Assembly: GCF_947498515.1 (NCBI RefSeq)
Contig: NZ_CANMKO010000001.1
Location: 62,001 to 126,000, forward strand
Origin: an uncultured Pelagimonas sp.
GTDB taxonomy: Bacteria > Pseudomonadota > Alphaproteobacteria > Rhodobacterales > Rhodobacteraceae
Direction of reading: 5' to 3'
DNA length: 64,000 nucleotides
Part shown: positions 7,047 to 21,561 of the stretch, piece by piece
Layout: every line of letters starts with the position of its first letter
Position numbering within the stretch: position 1 is the first letter of the stretch
Made by a program: the position numbers and the translations under genes
Notes under the pieces: model-generated
The model's database searches: none
What the model saw: the letters and a program-made list of their open reading frames with translations, nothing else
Told to the model about the DNA's origin: nothing

Positions 7047-8363
7047 ATGAGTATGAGCAGGCGGAGCCTGGGCTTGATCATCGCTGTTGCGATGCTGCCC
7101 GGATGCATGAAAGATATGGGTGAGGGCGCAGTCTCTCGCTTCAAAGGGGCTGAGCCGGATGCGGTGGCCCCAGCTGGCAAACCCAAGAAAGCGGTTGTCC
7201 GGGCCTCGGATTCATCCGAGATCATACGGGCATTGCAGGGCCGACCATCGGTCTTGATCTCGGGAACGCCCTATAACCGCGTGGCCGATGCCGTGATCGC
7301 ATCCGATGCCCGCGTGGCCGAAGCCGAGTTGCGGGTTGCGCGATTGCGAGAGCAAGCGGCCAAATACAACTGGCTTCCCTCCATCGGTCCCAACGTTTCA
7401 TTGAACTCGCTTGGCGAATTTGTCACCGATCTGGTGATCAATCAGGTGATCTTTGACAACGGGCGCAAGAAAGCCGAGCGTGATCTCGCCAAAGCCAATG
7501 TTGAAATCGCCGCCGTAACCCTTGTTGAAGATGGCAATCAGCGGGTTCACGACGCCTTGTCCCTTTACCTCAAGGCCGAGCAAAACAGGGACGTCTCAAG
7601 CCATCTGGCCATTGCGATCAAGGATATGAGCCAATTCGAATGGGTCATGCAGCAGCGCGTAAATGGCGGCGTATCGGATATGTCCGACCTCAATGTATTG
7701 CAGCAAAAACTGTCGTCGATGCAGGCCCGATCCTCTGAGGCACAAGAAGCCACCGTAACCGCCATGGCGGAGCTGAACGCCATGTCGGCCCGTCAGCTAA
7801 ACGACCTGCGCGGGATTGGCGGATTGCGGTCCGATAGCGGCGCTGAGGCGCTTGGTGTGTTGCGCTCAAAAGGCGAACAGGAACGTGCCATTGCCGAAGC
7901 CAAGATCAGCCGGGCGCAGCATTTGCCGGGTTTGTTTGTCAACGCCAAGGGCGGTCAAAGCGGGCCGGATATCGGGGCGACGATCTCGACAGATACTCTG
8001 TTTAGCCTAGGCACAATGGCCGAGTTCGAAGCCCTTGAAGTGACCAAGGAAACTGCCGCCCGCCGGGTCGAAGAAGCCCGCGAAGATGCCGCGCGCGATA
8101 TTGCGGCACAGTCGCGTCAGCTTGAATCCTACCGCCGACAAGCAATTGAGGCCACGACCTTGACCAAGCGGGCCAAGGAGAACCTCGACCTGTTCCAGGC
8201 GCAATATGACGGCGGTCAAAGACAAGTAATGGATGTAGTTGGTGTGTACGAGACTTATGCAATGGCGCTGGAGCGTGAAATCGATCTGAAATACAAGGCG
8301 GCGCGAGCCGAACTTGAACTGGCGCGCTTGCGCGGCGGTTTGGCCGAAGGGGCGCAGATTTGA
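7047..8363 (+). CDS. TolC-family outer membrane lipoprotein of the type I exporter
   Basis: This 438-aa protein begins with a lipoprotein signal ending in MLPGC, so it should be acylated and inserted in the outer membrane. The rest shows the long alpha-helical repeats of the TolC/OEP family: AEAELRVARLREQAAKYNWL near 95-115, the matching second-half helix EQERAIAEAKISRAQHLPGL, and coiled-coil stretches rich in Ala, Glu, Arg and Gln. It would form the outer membrane channel through which the adhesin leaves the cell. An ATG six bases downstream is an alternative start. The stop overlaps the likely TTG start of the ABC gene, which fits one operon. Confidence 0.85.
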   Translation: MSMSRRSLGLIIAVAMLPGCMKDMGEGAVSRFKGAEPDAVAPAGKPKKAVVRASDSSEIIRALQGRPSVLISGTPYNRVADAVIASDARVAEAELRVARLREQAAKYNWLPSIGPNVSLNSLGEFVTDLVINQVIFDNGRKKAERDLAKANVEIAAVTLVEDGNQRVHDALSLYLKAEQNRDVSSHLAIAIKDMSQFEWVMQQRVNGGVSDMSDLNVLQQKLSSMQARSSEAQEATVTAMAELNAMSARQLNDLRGIGGLRSDSGAEALGVLRSKGEQERAIAEAKISRAQHLPGLFVNAKGGQSGPDIGATISTDTLFSLGTMAEFEALEVTKETAARRVEEAREDAARDIAAQSRQLESYRRQAIEATTLTKRAKENLDLFQAQYDGGQRQVMDVVGVYETYAMALEREIDLKYKAARAELELARLRGGLAEGAQI

Positions 8364-10576
8364 CCTCGCCTCAGATCCTCCGCATGGCAGATCGCGCCAA
8401 AGACGCGATGTTGCGGGCCGTTCCCACCGGCACGGGCATCGGCGCTGCACGCAAATCGCGTTACTCTGACAAGGCGGAATCGCGCGCTGATATGATCTTG
8501 ATGCTGGCCAGCCGCCTTGGTGTGGACGCCCGCAAGCATGACATCCTCGAAGCTTTGGTGCGTGAGGCCGGATGTGATGACAGTTATGATGAGGTCGCGC
8601 TAAAGGCCGGGCTAGAAGCCGCTGGGTTGATCGCCGAGCTTGAAGAGCCGGACAGCTTGGTTCCAACCCTGTGGCCTGCCATTGCCTTGATGAGCAACGG
8701 TCAGACCGTCTTGGTGCTTGGTCAACAAGATGGCGGTCTAACCATCTATGACGAAAGCGGCACCGACCGTCGCTCCGAAGTGGCCATCGCCGAGTTTGGG
8801 CCATTTTTCTCGGGTCGGTTGGTTCGCGCTGAGGCTCCGGTCAAGGTTCTTTCGGAAACTCATGCCAAGTTAGACGAGAACATCCATTGGTTTTGGGGCG
8901 AATTTCGCCGCTTTTCGCGCCATTTCAGCGAAGTCGCCTTGGGGTCTTTTGTTGCCAACCTGTTGGCCGTGTCTGTGGCGCTGTTTTCGCTACAGGTTTA
9001 TGACCGGGTAATCCCGCATCAATCCGAAGCGACCCTTTGGGTCCTGGCCGCTGGTGCTGGTTTGGCGTTGTTGCTTGAGGCCTTCCTCAAGGTCGCCCGC
9101 TCGCAGTTGCTCGATGGGGCAGGGCGCCAGATCGAGTTGGGGGTGCAGAAAACCCTAATGCAACGCTTGCTGGGCATGCGCTCTGATCTCGTTGGCCGTT
9201 CACCGTCTCAGCTGTTCTCTGCGATGCGTGAATTTGGCTCGGTCCGTGAATTCTTTACCGCTTCGACGGTAGGGGCCTTGGCCGACATTCCGTTTATCTT
9301 CGTCTTTCTCGCCCTTGTCTGGTCGATCGCCGGGTCGGTTGTCTGGGTCTTGATCGCCGGGGGCATCATGATGGTGGTGCCTGGCTTCTTGATGCAAAAG
9401 AAAATGATCCGCCTTACGCAGGAAATGCAGGGCGCATCCTCCAAACAATCCCGTCTGCTCCAAGAAGTGGTGGTTGAGCTCGATACGATCAAAACCCAAC
9501 GCGCCGAAGACCGGTTTGAGCGGACATGGGAAGAGCTGACCGCTGTCCAAGCTTTGAAATCTTCCGAACAACGTAAACTTGCGGCGTCCCTGACGTTTTG
9601 GAGCCAAGGCGTTCAGCAGGCCACCTATGTCGGCGCGGTCATCACCGGGACATACCTTGTGTTTGCGGGTGAATTCACCGTCGGGTCGATCATCGCCGTT
9701 GGTATCCTGTCGTCGCGCACCCTGGCCCCTTTGACGCAGCTGTCGGGTATCATGGCGCGCTGGGGCAATGTCAAAAGCGCGCTGGACGGGTTGGACGCGA
9801 TTGCCCATGTCGATTGTGACCGCTCGACCGAACGGACCTATTTACGCCGCGAAAAACTAAACGGTGAATATGAGCTGCGCGACGCCAGCTATCACTATGA
9901 CCCCGAAGGGTCCCCCGTTCTGGATTTGCAGGCGCTCAAAATCCAACAGGGTCAGGTTTTGGCCATCCTTGGGGCCAATGGATCGGGCAAATCGACCCTG
10001 TTGAAAATGCTGACCGGGCTCTATGCGCCAACATCGGGCAAGCTTTTGATTGATGGCACCGAGATGTCGCAGATCGAACCGCGTGATTTACGCCGGACCA
10101 TTGGCTATCTGGGCCAAGACGTCCGTCTGTTTCATGGGACGCTGCGCGACAATCTCAACCTCAATATGATGGAGCGCAATGACGAACGTCTGTTCGAAGC
10201 GCTGGATTTTGCCGGGTTGGGGCAATTCGTCAAAAGCCATCCCAAGGGGCTTGATCTGGAAATCCGTGATGGTGGCGAAGGCCTTTCGGTTGGCCAACGT
10301 CAAAGCATCGGCTGGGCCCGGCTTTGGCTTCAGGATCCGGACATTTGCCTTTTGGATGAGCCGACGGCGGCCCTTGATCAAACGCTTGAAAAGACGCTGA
10401 TTTCACGGCTGGAAACATGGTTACAAGGCCGTACAGCCGTGATTGCGACACACCGGGTGCCAATCTTGTCTTTGGCATCTCGCACGATGATTTTGGCAAA
10501 TGGCCGTATGGCAATTGATGGCCCGCGCGATCAGGTTCTTGATCACCTGCGCACGGCCGGACAGGGGGCTGCATAA
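8360..10576 (+). CDS. Type I secretion ABC transporter with degenerate C39-like domain (LapB-type)
   Basis: The protein is 738 aa. Residues about 30-150 resemble a C39 peptidase fold but lack the catalytic Cys motif, as in LapB-type exporters of adhesins that carry no double-glycine leader. A six-helix membrane domain follows (about 180-460), then a nucleotide-binding domain with Walker A GANGSGKST near 537, signature LSVGQRQ, Walker B ICLLDEP and H-loop ATHR. It powers export of the adhesin across the inner membrane. I accept the TTG at 8360 because GAAGGGG lies seven bases before it and it overlaps the preceding stop. The next in-frame ATG (8384) has no ribosome binding site. The stop overlaps the HlyD start by one base (TAATG). 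Confidence 0.88.
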   Translation: MTSPQILRMADRAKDAMLRAVPTGTGIGAARKSRYSDKAESRADMILMLASRLGVDARKHDILEALVREAGCDDSYDEVALKAGLEAAGLIAELEEPDSLVPTLWPAIALMSNGQTVLVLGQQDGGLTIYDESGTDRRSEVAIAEFGPFFSGRLVRAEAPVKVLSETHAKLDENIHWFWGEFRRFSRHFSEVALGSFVANLLAVSVALFSLQVYDRVIPHQSEATLWVLAAGAGLALLLEAFLKVARSQLLDGAGRQIELGVQKTLMQRLLGMRSDLVGRSPSQLFSAMREFGSVREFFTASTVGALADIPFIFVFLALVWSIAGSVVWVLIAGGIMMVVPGFLMQKKMIRLTQEMQGASSKQSRLLQEVVVELDTIKTQRAEDRFERTWEELTAVQALKSSEQRKLAASLTFWSQGVQQATYVGAVITGTYLVFAGEFTVGSIIAVGILSSRTLAPLTQLSGIMARWGNVKSALDGLDAIAHVDCDRSTERTYLRREKLNGEYELRDASYHYDPEGSPVLDLQALKIQQGQVLAILGANGSGKSTLLKMLTGLYAPTSGKLLIDGTEMSQIEPRDLRRTIGYLGQDVRLFHGTLRDNLNLNMMERNDERLFEALDFAGLGQFVKSHPKGLDLEIRDGGEGLSVGQRQSIGWARLWLQDPDICLLDEPTAALDQTLEKTLISRLETWLQGRTAVIATHRVPILSLASRTMILANGRMAIDGPRDQVLDHLRTAGQGAA

Positions 10577-11757
10577 TGGCTGTGTCTTCGACCAATCTTG
10601 CAGCACAGCTGCAAAAGGACATGAATGGCCCGTCCATGACAATTTGGCTCTGCGCCATTTCGGTCTGGGCCTTTGTAATCTGGGCATCCTTTGCCTGGGT
10701 CGACGAAATTGTGCGTGCAGAGGGGGAGATCATCTCTTCGTCACGGCCCCAGATCATCCAAAACCTCGAAGGCGGCATTCTCTCTGAATTGCTAGTCAAA
10801 GAGGGGGATGAAGTCTTGCGCGGCGATGTGCTTGCGCGGCTGCACGGGACCCAATTCAAAAGCTCGGTTGATGACCTGAGCGACCAAATCACCGCCCTCG
10901 AGGTCCGCCGCCTGCGGCTCGAGGCCGAACTGGCGGGGGCGTCGACTTTTGACGTCCCCGCATCTTTGGCGATGCGTTCGCCGCAGATGGTCGCGTCTGA
11001 AGAAGCATTGCTTTATGCGCGCTACACAGACTTCATCAGCCGAAGTTCAGGTGCGCGCCGGGTTTTGGATCAGGCCCAGAGCGAGCTTGATTTGATGGAA
11101 AACCTTTTGGACAAAAAGGTTGTTGCTTTGATCGAAGTGACACGAGCCCGCAAAGCCCAGGCCGACGCCAAGAAGCTATATGATGAGATTGTCACGCAGA
11201 CGGAATTGAGCCGGGCCGAAGAGTATTCGGACACGCTCAAAGAGCTGGCTACACTGCAGCAAAACCTAAAGGCGTCACAGGATCAGTTGAACCGGACCGT
11301 GCTGACGTCTCCGATGCACGGCATCGTCAACAACTTGAGCGTCACCACAATTGGTGGGGTTGTCCGTCCCGGCGAAGAGATTTTGCAAATCATTCCGGTG
11401 GACGAAGAGCTGTTTGTCGAAGCGCAGGTCAAACCGGAAAACATCGCGAATATCCGTCCGGGTCAAGAGACAACGATCAAATTGACGGCCTATGATTATA
11501 CCATCTACGGGACCCTCAAAGGGCGTGTGGATGTGATCTCGGCGGATACCTACAAAGATGAACGCCGTCCGGAGACGGAGGCGCATTACAAAGTGTCAAT
11601 TCGGGTTGATATGTCGTCGATGACCGACCGTCAGGCGGCGATGGAAATTCGCCCTGGCATGTTGGCTCAGGCCGAGTTGCACACCGGTGAAAAGACGGTT
11701 TTGCAGTATCTTCTCAAGCCGTTGTATAAATCGCGTGAGGCGTTCCGGGAGCCGTAA
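10576..11757 (+). CDS. HlyD-family membrane fusion protein of the type I exporter
   Basis: This 393-aa protein has a short cytoplasmic N-terminus and one membrane segment (about 22-42). The first half-lipoyl motif is IIQNLEGGILSELLVKEGD, followed by a coiled-coil hairpin (about 100-230). The second lipoyl half has TSPMHGIVNNLSVTTIGG, and a beta-barrel domain ends the protein (VDEELFVEAQVKPENI onwards). It links the ABC ATPase to the TolC-like channel in the periplasm. It is translationally coupled to the ABC gene by TAATG and ends the exporter operon, just before a paired palindrome. Confidence 0.9.
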   Translation: MAVSSTNLAAQLQKDMNGPSMTIWLCAISVWAFVIWASFAWVDEIVRAEGEIISSSRPQIIQNLEGGILSELLVKEGDEVLRGDVLARLHGTQFKSSVDDLSDQITALEVRRLRLEAELAGASTFDVPASLAMRSPQMVASEEALLYARYTDFISRSSGARRVLDQAQSELDLMENLLDKKVVALIEVTRARKAQADAKKLYDEIVTQTELSRAEEYSDTLKELATLQQNLKASQDQLNRTVLTSPMHGIVNNLSVTTIGGVVRPGEEILQIIPVDEELFVEAQVKPENIANIRPGQETTIKLTAYDYTIYGTLKGRVDVISADTYKDERRPETEAHYKVSIRVDMSSMTDRQAAMEIRPGMLAQAELHTGEKTVLQYLLKPLYKSREAFREP

Positions 11758-11764
11758 GGCTCCC

Positions 11765-11808
11765 AAATTTCGTCGACGAAATTTGCAAAACCCGTGCACG
11801 GGTTTTGG
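11765..11808. repeat. Paired-palindrome element, copy A (bidirectional terminator-like)
   Basis: The 20-base perfect palindrome AAATTTCGTCGACGAAATTT (11765-11784), a GC linker and a second 20-base perfect palindrome, AAAACCCGTGCACGGGTTTT (11787-11806), are followed by GG. The second unit has an A run before and a T run after a GC stem, so it can act as an intrinsic terminator on both strands. It lies between the convergent hlyD-like and dtd genes. The same layout recurs at 21570. Confidence 0.85.
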
Positions 11809-11812
11809 TCGC

Positions 11813-12256
11813 TCACGCCTCGTTGTCCATCCAAATGGTCACCGGACCGTCGTTCAATAGGCTGACTTTCATATCGGCCCCAAATTGGCCTTTCGCGATG
11901 GGGAGGCCTTGGGCGGCGATCTGCTTGGCGAAGTATTCATACATCGCTTCGCCGTCCACTGGGGCCGCGGCGGATGAAAAGCCTGGGCGATTTCCACGCG
12001 ATGTATCGGCGGCAAGCGTGAACTGGCTAACAACCAATACGCTTCCGCCAATGTCTTTGACCGACCGGTTCATGCGCCCGTCATCGTCTTTGAAAACCCG
12101 CAATTTGGCAATTTTGGCGGCCAGTTTGTCGGCCTGAGCTTCGGTGTCGCCCTGCATCGCGCAGACAAGCACCAGTAGACCCGGCCCAATCTCGCCAATG
12201 GTCTCCCCGTCAACCTCAACGCGGGCTTCGGAAACCCGTTGCAACAATGCGCGCAT
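11813..12256 (-). CDS. dtd: D-aminoacyl-tRNA deacylase
   Basis: This 147-aa protein of the usual DTD length begins [17 protein letters not shown]. It contains SQFTLAAD (the SQxxLxAD active-site motif) and the C-terminal [10 protein letters not shown], where the conserved GPVT segment recognises the D-amino acid backbone. The homodimer hydrolyses D-amino acids wrongly attached to tRNA and so keeps them out of proteins. It lies 13 bases after the zinc-ribbon gene and may be cotranscribed with it. A paired palindrome follows the stop codon. Confidence 0.95.
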
Positions 12257-12269
12257 ATCATTTGCCTTC

Positions 12270-13391
12270 TTATTGGTTCATGGCGACGACGTAGCCAATA
12301 CCGGCGGCGACCAGAAGCCCCAACACAACAGCAAAGGTGATCTTCCATGCTGACCAAGGGCGCTCGCCTTTGACCCGCCCCGTGCGCCCGTTGACAACAA
12401 ACCGGTAACTATTGCCGCGATATTTGTAGGCCGCCATCCAGACCGGCAGCAGCACGTGTTTGAAGGTCACATCAGACACATGTGTGTCGAGCCCTTGGAT
12501 GCGCTGTCGATCACCACCGATGTCGAATTTCACATCGCGGCGAATTTGGCGATCCATTATGGCGCGGGCTTCGTCAAAGCCAACATCCAGGTCAATTTGA
12601 TAACCTTCGGCCCGAAATCCAGCAAGGAATTCAGGCCGGTAAGGTTCCATAGCGCTTAAATCCCACGGCTCTAGCGCGTCGGTGTATTTCTTGGGCAAGG
12701 CTTTGGAGGCCAAAACCAACACATCGTCGAAAAAGCGCGCCACGCGTCCAGACACCGGGGTCCAGCGGATTTTTTGTACCCTTTCCTGTCGGGTTTCCCC
12801 GTCACGTGTCACGGTCCTTGTCTCGTAATAAATCGTACCGCGCTCGCCACGATAAGCGGATTTTGTATCGGCATCATAGGTCCAATAGGGCACGTAGATA
12901 CCGTTCATTTTACGTCCCTTTCGGGCGTATTCCTGCAATCCATTTGGTGCAAACCATAACCGCCCCAACCAGTCATTCATGGCGTCATGCGCGGTCTTTT
13001 CATCCAAAGCAAAGGGCAAGAGGCCCTTGGGTTTGATGTGCCTGTGTTCCCCTGTATCCGTGACCACAGGTGTCGCGCAGAACGGACATTCGGAGGCGTG
13101 TAGATCAGGGTCGAATTCTACTTCGGCGGCGCAATTGGGGCATTTCGATACGCGGGTTTCTTCCATGTCTTGCAAGGGGAGCAAGTTGTTTATCGCGGCC
13201 TTGAAATCAAGCTCGCGTATGCCGCCCTCCCAAGGGCCTGTCTCGGTGACTTGGGCGGTATGGCCGCAAAAATCACAAACCATTTGCCCAGCATCGGGGT
13301 CAAAGCGAAAATCTGCGCCGCATTGATCACAGGGAAATCGGTGTTCCTCCGTCGGTGTCTCCGGCGGTGAAGGCGCAGAAATATCAGGCAT
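12270..13391 (-). CDS. Zinc-ribbon membrane protein (TFIIB-type zinc finger domain protein, YdjG-like architecture)
   Basis: This 373-aa protein has two Cys4 zinc ribbons near the N-terminus: CDQC with CDFC, and CPNC with CPFC. A long soluble middle region includes [18 protein letters not shown] and [13 protein letters not shown]. The C-terminus has one membrane segment ([18 protein letters not shown]). Automated annotation often calls such proteins 'primosomal protein' or 'TFIIB zinc finger', but nothing here supports a replication role. The layout recalls Bacillus YdjG, which works with the SPFH protein YdjI, and an SPFH gene is the next gene upstream. I chose the ATG at 13391 (AAGAG five bases before) over an upstream GTG at 13427. 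Confidence 0.75.
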
Positions 13392-13777
13392 TTGAACTCT
13401 TAATCTTCGGTTAAGGATCGTTGGCACACATTACGCTCAATGCATTTGAAGTGGGAGTCCTTGATGTCAACAAAACCGAGATAGACGCAAAAGTTGCGAA
13501 AGCTTGGTTCGCGCATTCCCAATGGTAGGTAAAGTTTAGACTCGCCGTGCAATTTGAGGCGGTGCCCGAGCTCTGACCTTGCGAGTGTGTCGGAATTTCA
13601 GACTGTCCAAAAGGCGCACAGCCACGTTCACAAAGAGGCAGGGCGCATAGCTGGCATGGTCAAAGCCCGTGATATGGCACCTGCCGGTATCGAACTAGAT
13701 GGGCCTGCTTACGCTATGGCGACCGACATGCTTAAAAAGCCTTGGTAAACCTACGTAAACAAGCCCAATCTTAGGTG
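13392..13777. other. 386-base gap between SPFH and zinc-ribbon genes
   Basis: No convincing gene is visible. A plus-strand frame of 64 codons (13554-13748) lacks a ribosome binding site and resembles no family I know. On the minus strand a perfect TTGACA (13470-13465) lies about 75 bases before the zinc-ribbon start, but no good -10 box follows at normal spacing. The direct repeat GTAAAC-CTAC-GTAAAC lies near 13745-13760. The gap suggests the zinc-ribbon gene has its own promoter. Confidence 0.4.
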
Positions 13778-14884
13778 TTAGCCCATGGGCGGCGGCGGCG
13801 GGGGCATGACTGTAAAGAGTTGAGCAAGCTCCTGTACATCACCGGCCTTTTTCCATCCGTCTTGACCGGGGGTCCAGACATGGGTGTCGCGAGAGAGTTC
13901 GCCCGTGGTTGTCATGCGACCAAGATCAGCTTTGGAAAACGGGCCAGTTGTCTGTCCATTCACCGCCAAGTGCCAAACATGTTCAACAGGCGGAGGAGGA
14001 GGGGCCATTCCCGGCGCAGGTTGCTGCCCGGCTGGGACCATACCACCGGCCATTTGGTTGGCCATGTTCATGCCCATACCAGCACCAAACCCCATGCCCA
14101 TGGATTGATCCATGGCGCCACCTTGGCCCATGGCCTCGGCTGCCTTGTATTTCATATGGTCGTCAAGGTTGCCGGTGATCCCGCGCGAGGTGCGGGTGTC
14201 CATGGCTTTCTCGACTTCCGGCGGAAGCGAGATGTTTTCGATATAAAGCTCAGGCAGCTCAAGACCGTATTGCGCTATGGTGCCACTAATGGCTTGGGCA
14301 ATAAGCTTGCCAACGTCACCGGTATTTGCCGCCATATCCAGAACCGGAATGCCGGATTTGGTGATCGACTGGCTGAATTCCTGAACAATGATATTGCGAA
14401 TTTGAAAGCTGATCTCGTCCATGGTGAATTCACCATCGGTGCCAACGATCTCTTTGAGGAACAGCGCCGGATCGGCCACTTTGACCGAATAGGTGCCAAA
14501 GGCCCGGATGCGGGTCGGCCCAAATTCAGGATCACGCAACATGATCGGGTTCTTGGTGCCCCATTTCAGATCAGTGAACCGGTTGGTGTTCACAAAATAG
14601 ATTTCTGATTTGAACGGCGAATTAAACCCATGATCCCAATGCTGAAGGGATGTCATGATGGGCATGTTGTTGGTTTCCAACATATAAAGCCCGGGCGTAA
14701 AGACGTCGGCCAATTGGCCTTCGTGGATAAAGACGGCGGCCTGACCTTCACGAACGGTTAGTTTGGCCCCATATTTGATCTCATGGCCTTCGCGTTCAAA
14801 ACGATAGACCAATGTATCGCGCGTATCGTCCACCCAGTGAATAACGTCGATAAACTGGCCGGAAAGAAAATCGAAAATGCCCAT
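13778..14884 (-). CDS. SPFH-domain protein with C-terminal GYF_2 (DUF4339) domain
   Basis: This 368-aa protein starts MGIFDFLSGQFIDVIHW, typical of the YdjI/'virion core protein' branch of SPFH proteins. The SPFH region spans roughly 20-270. It is followed by a Gly/Met/Gln-rich and proline-rich linker (about 280-330), then a GYF_2 domain (WHLAVNGQTTGPFSKADL to TPGQDGWKKAGDV) and a PPPPP tail. SPFH proteins assemble on membranes. Bacillus YdjI acts with PspA in envelope stress, but no pspA is visible here. I chose the ATG at 14884, where family homology begins, over one 15 codons upstream. It sits between a zinc-ribbon membrane protein and a TelA/XpaC operon on the same strand. Confidence 0.8.
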   Translation of the reverse strand: MGIFDFLSGQFIDVIHWVDDTRDTLVYRFEREGHEIKYGAKLTVREGQAAVFIHEGQLADVFTPGLYMLETNNMPIMTSLQHWDHGFNSPFKSEIYFVNTNRFTDLKWGTKNPIMLRDPEFGPTRIRAFGTYSVKVADPALFLKEIVGTDGEFTMDEISFQIRNIIVQEFSQSITKSGIPVLDMAANTGDVGKLIAQAISGTIAQYGLELPELYIENISLPPEVEKAMDTRTSRGITGNLDDHMKYKAAEAMGQGGAMDQSMGMGFGAGMGMNMANQMAGGMVPAGQQPAPGMAPPPPPVEHVWHLAVNGQTTGPFSKADLGRMTTTGELSRDTHVWTPGQDGWKKAGDVQELAQLFTVMPPPPPPMG

Positions 14885-15227
14885 AAAACTCGGTCCCTTC
14901 TGGGTCGTTGATGAGCAAAAGATAACCATTCACGTCGTGAGTTTCTACAGTCACATGCGGAAACTCATGGGGGAAAAGGCTGATTAATGTGCCAGTTTTC
15001 CGCCTATGGCCCAGAATTTGACGCGCGATAGTCGGCGGATAGGTGGCGGAAAACAAGGGAGGGAGGCTTTTGCGTGGTCGCCGTTCGCTATAGGTGTCCG
15101 CCTCTCCAAAGTCAGAGGTACCCATATATCTAGTCGATGATAATTCAGTTGGCGAAACAGGTATGCTTGTCCCTGACCGGAGGATACTTAAAGCGAAGGT
15201 TTTGCTTTGAGCAACGGGCGCGGAGCC
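14885..15227. other. 343-base gap upstream of the SPFH gene
   Basis: This is presumably the promoter region of the SPFH gene. AAAGC and GCTTT arms with a nine-base loop (15190-15208) could end the upstream operon weakly. An overlapping 109-codon frame on the minus strand (start 15125) runs into the SPFH gene and resembles no family, so I do not call it. I see no clear promoter. Confidence 0.4.
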
Positions 15228-16205
15228 CTAGTTGACCAACGTCGCCGCACGCTCAATAACCACCGGCCGCGCCTGATCTCGCGTCATGCCGGGACGTAGG
15301 CGCGGATCATACAGGATTTTCAGCAGCATTTCATCATGCGTGGTCAGCAGGGCGAATTCGTCATCATCATTGAAAATCGACGGGCGCGCCCGCGGATCAT
15401 CGTTGCCCAACCCCAAACCTTGGGCGATTTCCTCGTGAATACAGGAACGGCGCAAGAGGTCTGGATGTTCGGACCGGATAATCGCAATGGCTTGACCATA
15501 GTCGTACCCGTTGATCGTGTCAGAAAACGCCACAACCAGACAATGGATCGAGCGCGGCAAATCATCGAACACGCGAAGCGCCGAGGGTGTCACATCGGGA
15601 ACCAATTGTTGAATCCGAGGGGCGATTTTTGAGGTGTCGTCCTCTGACATGAACAACACATGAAAGTTCGGGTCCTGCGCGCTCATTTGGATTGGGTGGC
15701 CGGTGATCCGGGCCAAACGCGCCGCGTAGGCCGCAACGCGGGCTTGGTCTTCGGCGATCTGATCTTTGGGAACGCCGGCTCCAAATTCGGTCACCATCCG
15801 GATCGGTTTGGTCCATTTCTTGACCGCGCTGGGCGTACCAGAGGACGGAGTTAACCCAGCTCCGCGTTCATATTCTTCAGCAAGCGCGATTTGTTCGAAA
15901 TTGCGGATCAACATAGTGTCGGTGAACGCCGTATCCGGGCCACCGCCATCTGTGCGCAATAAGCCGCGAACGAGAAGGTCGTTCTGCACCCGTGCGTAGT
16001 AATCCATCAACTCTTTGCTGGCCGCCGAGGGGCCAGTGGGGCGCGCAGGTTGAACAGGCGCTGGTGGAGGCGGGACCAAGCCGGTTGGTCGCACCGCCGG
16101 TGTCACAGAGGTTTTGCGTGGCGCAAGCGTTGAAGCGTCACAGCCCACAAGGGCCATGACGCCAATCAAAGCCGCCGAGGCGGCAAATGTCTTGCGCCAG
16201 CGCAA
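15228..16205 (-). CDS. DUF2927 lipoprotein, zincin-like
   Basis: This 325-aa protein has a lipoprotein signal ending ALVGC near residue 22 and a proline-rich spacer. The DUF2927 domain contains HEEIAQGLGLGND near 258-270, an HExxx motif suggestive of a metalloprotease-like fold. Activity has not been shown for this family as far as I know. The start codon is TTG, five bases after the telA stop, with no clear ribosome binding site, which suggests coupled translation. It is the last gene of the TelA/XpaC operon and would place a component on the periplasmic side. The only nearby ATG would remove most of the signal peptide. Confidence 0.72.
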   Translation of the reverse strand: MRWRKTFAASAALIGVMALVGCDASTLAPRKTSVTPAVRPTGLVPPPPAPVQPARPTGPSAASKELMDYYARVQNDLLVRGLLRTDGGGPDTAFTDTMLIRNFEQIALAEEYERGAGLTPSSGTPSAVKKWTKPIRMVTEFGAGVPKDQIAEDQARVAAYAARLARITGHPIQMSAQDPNFHVLFMSEDDTSKIAPRIQQLVPDVTPSALRVFDDLPRSIHCLVVAFSDTINGYDYGQAIAIIRSEHPDLLRRSCIHEEIAQGLGLGNDDPRARPSIFNDDDEFALLTTHDEMLLKILYDPRLRPGMTRDQARPVVIERAATLVN

Positions 16206-16210
16206 CTGGA

Positions 16211-17407
16211 TCAGGCCGGAACCGCAGTCGCAGCGTTGTCACCAACACCGTCTTTGCGCGCTTTGGCCGAGGCCAAGGTGTCGCGGAGTTCCGCTTCCAT
16301 TTTCTTGAGCTCTTCTTCGGCGGCGGCACGGCGTGCTTTGCCCTCGTCGGCGATTTGAAGGCTCTCTTGGATGGTGCCAATCAGATCGGCATTGGCCTGT
16401 TTGACCGCTTCGATGTCAAATACACCACGCTCCATCTCCTCGCGGATCATCTTGTTGCTTTCGCGCAGGTTGGATGCGTTCGAGGTCAACAATTCGTTGG
16501 TCAGGTCATTGGCTTCACGCACCGCGGCGGCAGCTTGGGCCGAGCGCTGGATGGTGACGGCCTGAGCCAGTTGGGTTTCCCAAAGCGGCACGGTGTTGAC
16601 CAAGGTCGAGTTGATTTTGGTGACCAGCGATTTGTCGTTTTCCTGAACCAAACGGATCGAAGGCAGCGATTGCATCGTGACCTGACGGGTCAGTTTTAGA
16701 TCGTGGACGCGGCGTTCCAGATCATCACGCGCGGCGCGCAAATCGCGCAATTGTTGCGCCACCATGACCTGATCGTTTTCGTCAGCCGCCTGAACCTCGG
16801 CCTCTTTGGCCGGAATGTCGACGGTATCCAAAACGTTCAGTTTTTCCTGACCTGCAGAAATATACAGTGCCAGCTCGTCATAAAATTGCAGGGTCTTTTC
16901 ATAGAGAAGATCAAGCGATTTGATGTCCTTCAAAAGCGTGTGCTCATGCTTGAGAAGGCTGTCGGTGATCTTGTCGATCTGACCCTGAACCGTTTCGAAA
17001 CGGGCGGTGAATTTGGCAAAGGGCGCGGCGCGACCCAGCAGTTTTTCCCACCATGTTTGTTTGCGACGCACGTCCAATTCGGAAACCGAAAAACCGCGAA
17101 TGGTGGTGACCATGTCACGTAGGCCGTCACCCGCGGGGCCGACGTCTTTGTTGCGCACATCGGTCAACATCGCCTGAGAAATCTCTTGCAACTCGGCCTG
17201 AGCCGCCGAGCCAAAGGATACGATCGAGTTGGTGTCACCCATGTCGATCTCATCCATACGTGTGCGAATTTCTTCGCCCACTTCTGGCGCGGCTTGGGCC
17301 AATGGCACAACGGCGTTCGCCTCACCTGGCTCTGGCAGGATCACTGCGTTGACTTCTTCGACCAAGGCCAGCGCCTCTTCGGCTTGCTTACGAACATTCT
17401 CAGACAT
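16211..17407 (-). CDS. telA: TelA-family toxic anion resistance protein
   Basis: This 398-aa, mostly helical cytoplasmic protein has the TelA signatures: LLGRAAPFAKFTARFETVQ, then long coiled coil (HEHTLLKDIKSLDLLYEKTL, LRDLRAARDDLERRVHDLKL) and SLPSIRLVQENDKSLVTKIN. The family is linked to tellurite and other stress resistance, but its biochemical action is not known. TelA and XpaC are neighbours in Bacillus (yaaN next to xpaC). Here the gene lies 27 bases after one xpaC-like gene, which supports a shared complex. A GGGGGA ribosome binding site precedes the ATG. Confidence 0.9.
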   Translation of the reverse strand: MSENVRKQAEEALALVEEVNAVILPEPGEANAVVPLAQAAPEVGEEIRTRMDEIDMGDTNSIVSFGSAAQAELQEISQAMLTDVRNKDVGPAGDGLRDMVTTIRGFSVSELDVRRKQTWWEKLLGRAAPFAKFTARFETVQGQIDKITDSLLKHEHTLLKDIKSLDLLYEKTLQFYDELALYISAGQEKLNVLDTVDIPAKEAEVQAADENDQVMVAQQLRDLRAARDDLERRVHDLKLTRQVTMQSLPSIRLVQENDKSLVTKINSTLVNTVPLWETQLAQAVTIQRSAQAAAAVREANDLTNELLTSNASNLRESNKMIREEMERGVFDIEAVKQANADLIGTIQESLQIADEGKARRAAAEEELKKMEAELRDTLASAKARKDGVGDNAATAVPA

Positions 17408-17434
17408 GGGATCCCCCGTTTTAAATTCCGCCTT

Positions 17435-18322
17435 TTACAGGCGTACACCCTCGCGCTGCAGCCGTTCGCGCAGCACATCTATTTCAATCGCCAAATCGGC
17501 GTTATTATCTAAAAGAAGCGTCTCGGTCTTCTTGCCAAAACTTTCTTCCAAATCGGTCAAAAGCATCATGAAATCGCTGCGCGCCTGACGGTCTTCATTG
17601 CGCGCATAGATATCGGAAAACTTAACCGCCGCGTCCTTGGCACCCATTAGATAAACGCCGAGATACTTCTTGGCGGCGGTCAGGTCGCGCGGATCTTCTT
17701 CGACGGTCCGGATCATTTCACGGACCTTGATTTGGAACCGCTCAACACGGGCTTCGACCTTGCGATCACCGGCGCGTTTAACGGCGTCGGTCATCGCATC
17801 AAGATGGGCCTCGGCCTCATCCACAACGCGCGCAACACGGTCTTGCTGAAAGGTGTCGATGCCTTCCATGCCCTTGTCTTTGAGCGGGTCAAGGCCAAAG
17901 GCCCCTAGGTGCAACACGCCAGCGGCGCTGCCAAAGATCATCGGCGCAACAATGCCGGGTTCGGTACTATAAGCGGCAATGGCGGCCCCGATGCCGGTTA
18001 GAACCGCAGCGGCAATTTTGCGCGGAAATCCGGGGCGACGGGCCACTTTGCGTTCGTTATAGGCGGCTTCGGCCTCCAAACCTTCGCGCAAAAGCCACGC
18101 CCCAAGGATCAACGCGCCCGCGCCAACAAGGCCGACAGCCAAGCCAACGGCCCCGTCGTTGATCGACGTCGCAGCCAAAATGATCGGCGGAATGAACATC
18201 ACGTTCGACCGCGCCCCAACCGGGCTTACCTTGGCTTTGTGATACGCGCCCTTGGCTGGCACGTCATCTATAGGATCGTCTGATCCGTCGGGGCTAAATT
18301 GCCCACCAAATCGTTGTGCCAT
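17435..18322 (-). CDS. XpaC-family membrane protein (copy 1)
   Basis: This 295-aa protein has two hydrophobic regions in the first half: VMFIPPIILAATSINDGAVG to LGAWLL (about 41-80) and IAAAVLTGIGAAIAAY to GIVAPMIFGSAAGV (about 105-135). A helical cytoplasmic C-terminal half contains FGLDPLKDKG and EEDPRDLTAAKKYLG. The family is named from '5-bromo-4-chloroindolyl phosphate hydrolysis', but the enzyme role is doubtful; pairing with TelA is the robust fact. The start ATG is one base after the stop of a 29-codon frame (TGA-A-ATG), and its GGGGG ribosome binding site lies inside that frame, so translation is probably coupled. Confidence 0.85.
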   Translation of the reverse strand: MAQRFGGQFSPDGSDDPIDDVPAKGAYHKAKVSPVGARSNVMFIPPIILAATSINDGAVGLAVGLVGAGALILGAWLLREGLEAEAAYNERKVARRPGFPRKIAAAVLTGIGAAIAAYSTEPGIVAPMIFGSAAGVLHLGAFGLDPLKDKGMEGIDTFQQDRVARVVDEAEAHLDAMTDAVKRAGDRKVEARVERFQIKVREMIRTVEEDPRDLTAAKKYLGVYLMGAKDAAVKFSDIYARNEDRQARSDFMMLLTDLEESFGKKTETLLLDNNADLAIEIDVLRERLQREGVRL

Positions 18323-18323
18323 T

Positions 18324-18413
18324 TCAAAGGCCCCCTAGCCAGCCAGTGGAGAGGCCGAACAAGAGGACGATCAACAAAATATAACTAAGCTTTTGCAAGC
18401 CGCTTCCGGACAT
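18324..18413 (-). CDS. 29-aa single-span membrane microprotein
   Basis: The frame ATG (18413) to TGA (18324) encodes 29 aa. It starts MSGSGLQKL, continues with a hydrophobic core (YILLIVLLFGLSTGWLG) and ends GL, enough for one membrane helix. A CCGGGGGG purine-rich site lies four bases before the ATG, and the stop is one base from the XpaC copy 1 start. Hydrophobicity, ribosome binding site and coupling support a real gene. I know no named family for it. It may be a small subunit of the XpaC/TelA membrane complex. Confidence 0.6.
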   Translation of the reverse strand: MSGSGLQKLSYILLIVLLFGLSTGWLGGL

Positions 18414-18509
18414 GGAACCCCCCGGTTGTGTCTGGTTTCGCCTTGTAACTTAGGGATAAAGTATCGTGCTTGCTAGGGGGAACTGGCCCGTTTGAGCGTC
18501 AGACCGGCA

Positions 18510-19340
18510 TCACGCCGCCGATTCTCGGGGCATCCTGTCCAAAAGAAGGTCAGCTTCGAGATCAAATGCATCGCGGCCGCTTCGTTGACTGCCTTCGCGA
18601 GCATGGGTTTCAAAGCTTTCGCTGAGAACATCCAGCTTGAGGATAAAACGCTTGCGCGCGAAGAGATAGTTATCCTCATGCCACGACCTTTCTAGGCGGT
18701 CCGTTTCAGCCCGCAAAATTTCAGTGAATTTGGTCACCAATTTGCTGATTCTGGCTAGGTCTCGTGGATCGGTTCCAAAGCTGCGCATGAGGCCCATAAC
18801 CATGGCACGTGTTGCATCCGCCTTGAGGGTCAAATCGGCGTCGTCCAAATGCGCAATGCGATCGGTGATTTGCGACAAGCTATCATCGGCTTGATCCCAA
18901 GCATGTTCGGCGGCGATCCGATTGAGAAGTTCAGGGTTGTCGGCCCCTTTGTCCGCCAATGGATCCACGCCAAAGGCGGTCAAGCTTAGGCCCGTTGCGA
19001 CCAAACCGACAAAGGACGGTGCAACGAGTGTTGGGAAATGATGTCCGGCAAGGATGAACACGACAATGCCAATCAAGGCAGAGCCGATAACTTTGCGCGG
19101 GAGTTTCGGGGCCGTTGCGACCTGTGCCAAATCATAAGCCCGTTGAAGTTCCTGACCGCGGGAAATCAGCCGTAAAGCCACAGAGAACAGGCCCATTTCA
19201 AGCAACGCCGTGGCAACACCGCTCAGAGACCCCTGGAATATCCATAAAACAAGGGGAAACGCCGCCAAAAACATGACGTTTAGGCCGGAATCAAAGACTG
19301 GCGCATCAGATGGGCGCTGGTGTCGTCTCAAATCACGCAT
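18510..19340 (-). CDS. XpaC-family membrane protein (copy 2, diverged paralogue)
   Basis: This 276-aa protein is laid out like copy 1: two hydrophobic regions (NVMFLAAFPLVLWIF and VIGSALIGIVVFILAG), then FGVDPLADKG and a helical region with GTDPRDLARISKLVTKF. The shared FGxDPLxDKG and DPRDL motifs show the two are paralogues. I place the start at 19340 because GGAGGG lies four bases before that ATG. Upstream in-frame starts exist at 19352, overlapping the stop of the preceding small gene as TGATG, and at 19385. The C-terminal part is shorter and less acidic than in copy 1. Confidence 0.78.
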   Translation of the reverse strand: MRDLRRHQRPSDAPVFDSGLNVMFLAAFPLVLWIFQGSLSGVATALLEMGLFSVALRLISRGQELQRAYDLAQVATAPKLPRKVIGSALIGIVVFILAGHHFPTLVAPSFVGLVATGLSLTAFGVDPLADKGADNPELLNRIAAEHAWDQADDSLSQITDRIAHLDDADLTLKADATRAMVMGLMRSFGTDPRDLARISKLVTKFTEILRAETDRLERSWHEDNYLFARKRFILKLDVLSESFETHAREGSQRSGRDAFDLEADLLLDRMPRESAA

Positions 19341-19351
19341 AAAACCCTCCA

Positions 19352-19555
19352 TCAAAAACAGCTCAGGGCGAAGATCATGAACCACAAGGCAGCAAAGGCC
19401 AAACGTGGCATGAGCTGTCCTTCTGAATGGGCGCGAAACGTCGAATGGGCCAGCGCGTCATAGGTGTCGCGCGCGAGCATCCGAAGATTGCCGAGGATCA
19501 GAAACAGTGTGGCGAGCAGAGTCGCAAGGGCAAGAACTGTGGTCAACATACCCAT
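19352..19555 (-). CDS. 67-aa small membrane protein at the head of the XpaC/TelA operon
   Basis: This frame starts MGMLTTVLALATLLATLFLILGN-like and has two hydrophobic segments (about 3-22 and 50-66). Between them is a short loop containing RDTYDALAHSTFRAHSEG. Its stop overlaps an in-frame ATG of XpaC copy 2 by TGATG, and the same strand continues through the operon. The ribosome binding site is weak (GAG only). I do not recognise a family. Hydrophobic pattern and position make it probable that it is real and belongs with the membrane proteins downstream. Confidence 0.6.
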   Translation of the reverse strand: MGMLTTVLALATLLATLFLILGNLRMLARDTYDALAHSTFRAHSEGQLMPRLAFAALWFMIFALSCF

Positions 19556-19624
19556 AGTGATGCGCTCGAATCCGGGCGAAATCTGGGCAGGATACGGGTA
19601 ACTTCGAGAAACGTTAATCCGAGC

Positions 19625-20494
19625 TTAACGGCTTCGCTTTGGACGTGTGGCCTTGCCTTTGGGCGCTTTTGCGTTTGGTTTGAAGGTTTTAGGTCTTGCT
19701 GTGGTGCTTGGCTTGCGGGTGCGGGATACGGCGCGTTTGGCCGTTCCTGTGGGTTGCTCGGTGGCAAGCCCCAATTGGTCACGCACAATCTTGCGCCGCA
19801 CTTCTTCAACGGCCCCATCCTTGAGCTGGCCAAGTTGGAAAGGACCATACGAGATGCGGATCAAACGGTTCACGTACAACCCAATGTCATTCATCGCGCG
19901 GCGGATTTCGCGGTTTTTTCCCTCGCGGAGGCCGACCGTTAGCCAAGCGTTGGCCCCTTGCTGGCGGTCGATTGTGACGGTCATCGGCTGAAAGCGCTGA
20001 CCATCGACGACAATCCCCTTGCGAAGCGGTTCCAGAACCTCATCCGTTGGGCGGCCATTTATCCGGACACGATACCGACGCAACCAGCCGGTCGACGGCA
20101 GCTCGAGCTTGCGTTTCACCCCGCCGTCATTGGTCAGCAACAGCAACCCTTCGGAATTCAGGTCAAGACGGCCAACGCTCATGACGCGGGGCATGTCTTC
20201 GGGCAGGTCGTCATAAATCGTCGGGCGGCCCTGTTCGTCTTTGGTTGTTGTCACCAAACCGGTGGGTTTGTGATACAGCCACAGGCGCGGTTCTTCGGGT
20301 TCCGCCAACTCGTTGCCATCGACAACAATGCGATCGGCTTCGGTGACGTTTAGGGCCGCGCGGGTGATCACCTCGCCGTTGACCTCCACCAACCCGGCTT
20401 CGATCATCTTTTCGGCGTCACGGCGGCTGGCAATACCGGCGCGGGCGATAACCTTGGCGATACGGTCGCCCTTTGGGGTGTCGGAAGCTGTCAT
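19625..20494 (-). CDS. rluB: RluB-type rRNA pseudouridine synthase
   Basis: The protein is 289 aa. An S4 RNA-binding domain (about 8-60, AKVIARAGIASRRDAEKMI) is followed by the RsuA/RluB catalytic domain with GRLDLNSEGLLLLTNDG, where the Asp of GRLD is the catalytic residue, and GKNREIRRAM. The C-terminal 45 residues are a basic low-complexity tail, as in many RluB proteins. The predicted product modifies a uridine in helix 89 of 23S rRNA. I chose the ATG at 20494, although an upstream ATG at 20524 is possible. It is divergent from tadA with 75 bases between. Confidence 0.85.
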   Translation of the reverse strand: MTASDTPKGDRIAKVIARAGIASRRDAEKMIEAGLVEVNGEVITRAALNVTEADRIVVDGNELAEPEEPRLWLYHKPTGLVTTTKDEQGRPTIYDDLPEDMPRVMSVGRLDLNSEGLLLLTNDGGVKRKLELPSTGWLRRYRVRINGRPTDEVLEPLRKGIVVDGQRFQPMTVTIDRQQGANAWLTVGLREGKNREIRRAMNDIGLYVNRLIRISYGPFQLGQLKDGAVEEVRRKIVRDQLGLATEQPTGTAKRAVSRTRKPSTTARPKTFKPNAKAPKGKATRPKRSR

Positions 20495-20569
20495 GTCTAG
20501 CAGTCTCTGGCGAATTGGGATCAAGGCAACACGACTAGCCCATTTGCGTGGCAGAGGCTATAGGGCGTC

Positions 20570-21022
20570 ATGACCTTTCGTAGCTATATGGATATCGCGC
20601 TGTCAGAGGCGCGCGCCGCCGCCGCCCGGGGTGAAGTCCCTGTTGGGGCTGTTGTTGTTGATCCATCTGGGGGCGTCATTGCCAAAGCCGGAAATCGCAC
20701 CCGTGAAATGAATGATCCAACCGCCCATGCCGAAGTTTTGGCGATCCGCGCGGCCTGTTCTGTGTTGGGCGCTGAACGCCTTCCGGGGCATGATCTCTAT
20801 GTGACGCTAGAACCCTGTCCGATGTGCGCCGGGGCAATCTCCTTTGCGCGGATCGGGCGGCTTTACTATGGCGCGGGCGATCCGAAATCAGGTGGCGTGG
20901 CCCAAGGTGCGCGGGTGTTTGACCATCCGCAATGTCACCATATACCCGAGATTTATGACGGCATTGCCGCGCAAGATGCGGCGGATCTATTGAAAGACTT
21001 TTTTGCGGAGCGCCGACTATGA
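20570..21022 (+). CDS. tadA: tRNA adenosine(34) deaminase TadA
   Basis: This 150-aa protein has the cytidine/deoxycytidylate deaminase zinc site: HAE at 53-55 (His as zinc ligand, Glu as proton shuttle) and PCPMC at 82-86. The substrate segment around DPKSGGV follows. It converts A34 to inosine in tRNA-Arg(ACG), an essential wobble modification. It overlaps the next gene by ATGA, so the two are cotranscribed and both act in RNA modification. Confidence 0.93.
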
Positions 21023-21561
21023 CCGTCATTTTGTTCAACAAACCCTTTGGTGTGTTGTCGCAGTTCACCGACAAGGGGACCGAGGGCAGCCAGCGTGAAA
21101 CTCTGTCGAATTACATTGATGTGCCGGGGGTTTACCCGGCGGGCCGTTTGGATCGGGATAGTGAAGGCTTGATGGTTCTAACCGATGATGGCCAACTGCA
21201 GGCCAAGATTGCCCACCCGAAATTCAAAAAGCCCAAAACCTATCTGGTTCAGGTCGAGGGGGAACCCTCGGACAGCCAAATCGCGGCGCTGTGCAAGGGG
21301 GTTGAGCTTAAAGATGGGCTGACACGGCCAGCGAAAGCCGAACGAATTGATCCGCCTGATCTCTGGCCGCGCACTCCACCGGTACGGTTTCGCAAAACGG
21401 TGCCGGATGCATGGCTGTCCTTGACAATTACCGAAGGGCGCAACCGTCAGGTGCGGCGGATGACAGCCCATGTCGGGCTGCCGTGCCTGCGTTTGGTGCG
21501 CTGGTCCGTGGGCGATTGGAGCCTAGACGGTTTGGCCACAGGGGCATGGCGCAAGGCGTAA
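21019..21561 (+). CDS. rluE: RluE-type 23S rRNA pseudouridine synthase
   Basis: This compact 180-aa enzyme begins directly with the catalytic domain ([16 protein letters not shown]), with no S4 domain, as in RluE. The motif [18 protein letters not shown] holds the catalytic Asp, and [15 protein letters not shown] is the second conserved block. It should form a single pseudouridine in 23S rRNA. The start overlaps the tadA stop by four bases (ATGA). A paired palindrome follows its stop at the junction with hemF. Confidence 0.85.

Follow-up and report, generated by a model that had tools for sequence, protein, structure and literature searches.

The window analysed here, a 64,000-nucleotide stretch of the 4.63 Mb genome of an uncultured Pelagimonas sp. 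(contig NZ_CANMKO010000001.1, positions 62,001-126,000), carries a minus-strand operon, mp29-xpaC2-telA-DUF2927-SPFH-ZR, in which the TelA and XpaC proteins are encoded together with a DUF2927 lipoprotein, an SPFH-domain protein and a zinc-ribbon membrane protein (ZR). Given that this set of neighbouring genes is near-universal among the sampled Rhodobacteraceae, and that the promoter-like element at its head in about a quarter of them occurs at few other places, the genes very probably form one working unit at the cell membrane. As to the nature of this unit, we see about even chances that the operon encodes a single inner-membrane stress assembly, in which an SPFH/ZR platform operates with TelA-XpaC where Bacillus uses PspA.

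Eight genes occupy positions 12270-19555, flanked by rluB (19625-20524) and dtd (11813-12256). They are transcribed in the order mp67, XpaC1, mp29, XpaC2, TelA, DUF2927 lipoprotein, SPFH-GYF_2, and ZR, and the gaps between them are small, except for ~340 nucleotides ahead of the SPFH start and ~390 nucleotides ahead of ZR. The parts are as follows:

19352-19555, minus strand: mp67, 67 amino acids with two hydrophobic stretches and no Pfam match; accessory, confined to loci with XpaC1
18510-19340, minus strand: XpaC1, a divergent XpaC paralogue; accessory, 5' of the promoter-like element
18447-18482, minus strand: bipartite promoter-like element TTCCCCCTAG-N18-CYTANNTT, 69 nucleotides 5' of mp29
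18324-18413, minus strand: mp29, a microprotein of 29 amino acids with a single transmembrane segment; the operon proper begins here
17435-18322, minus strand: XpaC2, a membrane protein with hydrophobic stretches; PF10112 (1e-21)
16211-17407, minus strand: TelA, PF05816 (3e-106); predicted all-helical, no transmembrane segment
15228-16205, minus strand: DUF2927 lipoprotein, PF11150 (2e-61); TTG start, signal peptide with lipobox LVGC-D
13778-14884, minus strand: SPFH protein, PF13421 (1e-100), with a proline-rich linker and a C-terminal GYF_2 domain, PF14237 (1e-19)
12270-13391, minus strand: ZR, double zinc ribbon PF11781 (2e-8), four CxxC knuckles and one C-terminal transmembrane segment

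An earlier note on this DNA had named the same eight genes, and its list is borne out by the Pfam matches, the coordinates, and the comparison of XpaC1, itself without Pfam match, with XpaC2 (28% identity, E 4e-26). The eight cysteines of ZR (C21, C24, C39, C42, C84, C87, C102, and C105) are invariant in an alignment of seven members.

Conservation was followed in two sets of loci. An order-level sample of 149 genomes (73 genera, one family throughout) yielded 76 stretches, of which 73 contain TelA and cover 71 genera plus two extra genomes (G048 and G130); a second, named set holds the best 80 of 516 confirmed matches and is hence biased to close relatives. Together these are 153 loci, or 148 distinct ones once five repeats are removed. 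In profile searches TelA scored above cut-off in 147 of the 149 genomes, in G085 as a partial match only, and PF13421 was matched in 146, in 145 of these above cut-off and at full length. G106 has neither TelA nor SPFH, G011 lacks TelA and has a weak SPFH match, and the SPFH gene was not found in G081 and G085. Among the 73 TelA loci of the order sample, some of whose misses are contig ends or stretch ends, XpaC2 is present in 70, DUF2927 in 70, SPFH in 68, ZR in 63, and mp29, adjoining xpaC, in 67; the flanking genes rluB and dtd are found in 59 and 49. The pairing of TelA with XpaC that the earlier note had mentioned for Bacillus is seen in these 70 loci, PF10112 preceding PF05816 as in xpaC-yaaN of B. 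subtilis. All five of XpaC2, TelA, DUF2927, SPFH, and ZR keep one order and strand wherever they occur together, both in the order sample (60/60) and in the named set (74/74). They are complete in 131 of the 148 distinct loci, and mp29 accompanies 140 of the 148. The note's proposal would have been refuted had SPFH and ZR not neighboured telA and xpaC in other species; they do, and conservation on this scale argues strongly for a functionally linked unit. The note's inclusion of XpaC1 and mp67 as core members did not hold: the two are found in 3/73 order-sample, 12/80 named, and 15/148 distinct loci and lie 5' of the element. Extra genes amid SPFH and ZR, by eye cytochrome b561-type membrane proteins, were seen in nine loci (L043, L044, L045, L054, L060, L066, L071, L078, and L082).

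The microprotein mp29 has one leucine that is invariant in all 145 copies aligned, one from the window and the others from 144 loci, and a glutamine and a lysine ahead of its hydrophobic stretch are common (119/145 and 106/145, respectively). The median pairwise ratio of nonsynonymous to synonymous substitution rates is 0.44, which is indicative only, as synonymous sites are near saturation.

The leaders of mp29 share TTCCCCCTAG(C), followed at a fixed spacing of 18 nucleotides by C(C/T)TA..TT, mostly 60-83 nucleotides 5' of mp29. This spacing equals that of -35 and -10 boxes and, judged by its sequence, the element is promoter-like and mostly confined to this operon; since it sits amid xpaC1 and mp29, the operon proper begins at mp29. 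With at most two mismatches, the first half is found in 80 of the 145 leaders from which the pattern was itself derived, compared with 3/145 (reverse complement) and 4/145 (shuffled) in the controls; by leader type, and counting the window, it marks 55/101 plain leaders, 12/28 with TerC, and 13/16 with XpaC1. The full pattern, again with at most two mismatches, lies 900-1700 nucleotides 5' of the telA frame in 72 of 153 loci (69/148 distinct; 52/80 named vs 20/73 order-sample), and the stretches hold 2 additional sites elsewhere. The genome to which the window belongs has this site alone at this stringency, where the reversed-pattern control gives 2. Across the 149 genomes, at most one mismatch leaves 53 sites in 50 genomes, 40 of them at this operon, one per genome in 40 genomes and 1196-1285 nucleotides 5' of the TelA domain; the 13 off-operon sites compare with 9 for the reversed-pattern control. 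Similar off-operon copies recur in related pairs of genomes (G045/G049 at L250 and L251, G082/G140, G061/G095, and G030/G126), so that the element may have genuine second targets, if few. Runs of at least four G before the start codon occur in 50/70 leaders with the element and 39/75 without it, and the mean folding energy of the leaders is -20.1 vs -17.2 for one simple shuffle each, a weak signal; the case for the element as a ribosome-site hairpin is likewise weak. Sigma-70-type sites were not enriched (4 vs a shuffle mean of 5.6), and terminator-like sites numbered 17 vs 12.2 in shuffles.

Outside the family, the operon resolves into two modules, XpaC-TelA and SPFH-ZR, which are joined in Alphaproteobacteria. 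For a class-level sample of 152 genomes, all but two from other families, we chose at least 200 bits as the threshold for a strong match. All six outside-family genomes with an SPFH match of this strength also have such a TelA match, which occurs in 10 of the 150 outside-family genomes overall (hypergeometric 1.5e-8, uncorrected for relatedness). XpaC-TelA-SPFH-ZR is contiguous in four of these (L118, L119, L120, and L122), from four other alphaproteobacterial families, and in the remaining two the genes lie apart. No DUF2927 match was found in the four contiguous stretches, and two family members (L049 and L057) have no DUF2927 at the locus, telA there abutting the SPFH gene; DUF2927 therefore looks inserted into an older unit. 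In a phylum-level sample of 200 genomes, 4 from outside the family have both TelA and SPFH, matched in 16/192 and 15/192, respectively (p 0.025); one genus accounts for many of the SPFH cases. Eight SPFH loci were examined from the 14 outside-class genomes with a full-length match, and a strong ZR lies directly 3' of SPFH in seven of them, the eighth being weak (18 bits). The contiguous units in other families, together with SPFH-ZR pairs without TelA further out, are what identify two modules that were joined. In two outside-family loci (L124 and L138) the SPFH gene is near a membrane protein with a spermidine-synthase domain (PF01564 in L124; by eye in L138), and TelA is elsewhere.

Both modules have counterparts in Bacillus. 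The family PF13421 is present in B. subtilis, as a control genome confirmed, and its member there is presumably YdjI. In the pspA-ydjGHI operon, part of the sigma-W envelope-stress regulon, the SPFH gene likewise neighbours one for a zinc-ribbon protein of TFIIB type that is anchored in the membrane, so that the resemblance to YdjG-YdjI seen in the earlier note is sustained by a PF13421 protein next to a zinc-ribbon membrane protein; ZR is likened to YdjG by family type and gene position rather than by direct comparison. In contrast to pspA-ydjGHI, the operon described here has no PspA and, by annotation, no YdjH candidate, and has TelA, XpaC, mp29, and DUF2927 instead; its SPFH protein has a C-terminal GYF_2 domain, in contrast to the zinc finger described close to the C-terminus of YdjI. 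In B. subtilis, xpaC-yaaN counts as core and pspA-ydjGHI and yceCDEFGH as secondary in the sigma-W response (PMC3498285), and PspA does not reach the membrane without YdjI, while YdjG and YdjH belong to the same network (PMC8581546). In Lactococcus lactis cells that overproduce the membrane protein BcaP, telA1 (3.44-fold) and an XpaC-like gene (10.3-fold) are upregulated as part of the CesSR envelope-stress regulon (PMC3139573). The link to envelope stress that the note proposed agrees with the place of both halves of the operon in such regulons of Firmicutes. XpaC is followed by TelA in xpaC-yaaN, in llmg_1115-telA1 of L. lactis, and in lmo1966-1967 of Listeria; unlike here, these pairs are unjoined to SPFH-ZR, going by the operons and loci that the papers name, yet in Bacillus the separate modules are each sigma-W-controlled.

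Based on these parallels, we propose the following model. In many species, the operon would be transcribed from its own promoter-like element. ZR would be a tail-anchored inner-membrane protein that exposes its zinc ribbons to the cytoplasm and holds SPFH at the membrane, as YdjG (with YdjH) and YdjI do in Bacillus, and SPFH would oligomerise into a patch. This platform could then recruit the long, helical TelA, its partner XpaC, and the single-transmembrane microprotein to damaged or overloaded membrane, replacing PspA. The DUF2927 lipoprotein, added by the Rhodobacteraceae amid telA and SPFH, would probably serve as a non-proteolytic periplasmic arm for binding or sensing. The genes present, their order and spread, and the conserved element are observed; topology, complex formation, TelA recruitment, and the stress role are what we infer here. 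The GYF_2 domain probably binds a proline-rich stretch present in nearly all SPFH copies: PPP is carried by 147/150 SPFH proteins vs 3/153 TelA and 2/150 XpaC, which makes SPFH itself the more likely ligand, with ZR (32/140) as a possible one; the exported DUF2927 protein has PPP in 37/150. TelA and XpaC were considered as GYF_2 ligands and rejected, given that PPP is almost never there. Outside the family, the C-terminal SPFH slot holds GYF_2 in three alphaproteobacterial copies scanned (L119, L122, and L126), HTH_17 in L136, and SHOCT, slightly under cut-off, in L124; SHOCT with PF13421 is already known and has been discussed in connection with oligomerisation (PMC3581485).

Several observations weigh against a joint TelA-SPFH assembly that stands in for PspA. 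The scarcity of PPP in TelA means that GYF_2 provides no argument for a contact between the two. The AlphaFold model of TelA, a long helical hairpin, has low confidence (predicted local distance difference test, pLDDT, 67.7; predicted template modelling score, pTM, 0.52), and its best structural matches are ClyA-type toxins, designed bundles, and coiled coils with Z of at most 11.8, under the meaningful level for helical bundles; no PspA chain is among the 50 matches listed for this model. A PspA/ESCRT-III-like fold was considered for TelA and, given these generic helical matches, is not claimed. PspA_IM30 is matched in 49 of the 149 order-sample genomes (48 above cut-off), including that of the window. 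The description 'PspA-less' in the earlier note is thus right for the operon, where none of the seven proteins scanned (all but mp29) matches PF04012, and wrong for the genome, whose sole PF04012 match lies off-operon (G000:C11:100008-100607, 65.9 bits). Furthermore, the promoter-like element marks this operon in a minority of the family (20/73 order-sample loci, 40/149 genomes), and a few of its off-operon copies recur in related genomes. Gene arrangement has its exceptions, too: TelA and SPFH-ZR are on separate large contigs in G048 and G124, the five genes of G110 are in order and dispersed across ~13 kb, G081 keeps XpaC-TelA-DUF2927 but lacks SPFH, and TelA is in the stretch in none of the eight SPFH loci outside the class. 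The separations in G048, G124, and the eight outside-class loci are also what might be expected if XpaC-TelA and SPFH-ZR were independent stress modules that stay side by side through co-transcription and vertical inheritance, with no joint machine behind them. We regard this as unlikely, since the same fusion order is found in four other families and the modules co-occur in six of six cases in the class sample though each is rare there.

Returning to the proposed assembly, its family-specific part is the DUF2927 lipoprotein, which is predicted to have a matrix-metalloprotease (metzincin) fold without the zinc histidines. The mature domain, folded on a 51-sequence alignment, reached pLDDT 91.1 and pTM 0.90. 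Foldseek searches against the PDB returned mostly metzincins as best matches (best E 8.7e-3, none at 0.001), and with VIA-align all 50 matches listed were matrix metalloproteases, among them karilysin (2xs3; Z 11.1, root-mean-square deviation 3.1, 152 residues) and MMP-7. Matrix metalloproteases bind zinc through the motif HExxHxxGxxH. At the corresponding place, assigned by spacing and aligned by eye rather than superposed, the DUF2927 protein has EE[ILMV]xQ[GA][LM]GLxN (residues 203-213, at the end of a helix spanning 194-208), so that EExxQxxGxxN replaces the motif and, by its sequence, the protein has lost the zinc ligands; E203, E204, Q207, and G210 are invariant in 51/51 sequences. The HEExx that the earlier note named was a misreading and is no zinc-protease motif: the conserved signature reads EExxQxxGLxND rather than HExxH, and the histidine before it is not kept in relatives from other families (six taken, three readable, all [VA]EExTQ). 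Of 151 operon DUF2927 frames, 143 have CxHEExxQ, five more have EExxQ on inspection (two without the histidine), and three are unresolved. In the class sample, 12 of the 17 genomes that have DUF2927 show no TelA match, and the genome of the window has three copies, two off-operon (G000:C2:27324-27923, 177 bits; G000:C4:339961-340389, 30 bits). A literature search on DUF2927, with most subscription journals outside its reach, gave no paper.

The oxygen ligands that Glu, Gln, and Asn/Asp could offer at this site bring in another explanation, in which the operon serves metals or oxyanions: the membrane task of TelA/XpaC, with TerC if present, would be to handle manganese or tellurite, perhaps by metalating exported proteins as Bacillus TerC does, with DUF2927 as a client that binds manganese or calcium and with SPFH-ZR as scaffold. 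TerC proteins (MeeF/MeeY) metalate exoenzymes (PMC10550928), and a TerC gene lies directly 5' of mp29-xpaC in 16/73 order-sample, 12/80 named, and 27/148 distinct loci (PF03741, 134 bits, in L042, the one scanned); the upstream slot holds either TerC or mp67-XpaC1, and both together in no locus. Also, telA of R. sphaeroides has been cited as a tellurite-resistance locus (O'Gara 1997, as cited in PMC6955997), and this same-family TelA very probably belongs to the same operon. In contrast to the TerC-type loci, the window has no TerC, the sole TerC match of its genome being elsewhere (contig C6); no Rfam match, hence no manganese riboswitch, was found in 10 TerC-type loci or in positions 11000-21500 of the window; and TelA, SPFH, and ZR are retained also where TerC is not adjacent. 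We therefore consider a metal or oxyanion operon possible, if on balance improbable. A combined reading, namely a PspA-independent, TelA-based membrane-repair machine with, in part of the family, a dedicated regulator that has essentially one promoter per genome, and with a metzincin-fold lipoprotein whose all-oxygen site, in place of the zinc site, would sense or carry periplasmic manganese or calcium and which TerC, in the loci that have it, would serve, appears doubtful to us in its entirety.

TelA relatives, 33-44% identical, are also found on five viral contigs of 85-359 kb (L232-L236), and a PHROG moron family with the name tellurite resistance is matched by TelA, which could point to an anti-phage or membrane-integrity defence system. 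When six operon proteins were compared with PADLOC models, ZR alone matched, at 13 bits, and the operon is near-universal in the family at one place, unlike defence islands, which renders such a role very improbable. On the other side of dtd, the plus strand (8360-11757) encodes what, judged from the translations, is an ABC transporter resembling those of type I secretion, paired with an adaptor of the HlyD type.

What this work adds is the joint operon together with mp29, an element found mostly at that operon, the link to TerC, and a lipoprotein with a predicted metzincin fold and no zinc histidines; among the literature matches listed, covering titles and abstracts with most subscription journals outside the search, no paper describes the joint operon. 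TelA goes by the label 'toxic anion resistance', and to our knowledge there is no agreed mechanism for it. A near-universal operon in a large and experimentally tractable family, which includes non-pathogenic laboratory strains, now gives this question concrete partners in the form of an SPFH/zinc-ribbon membrane platform, and also offers a promoter-like element to follow, a testable microprotein, and a candidate pseudo-protease.

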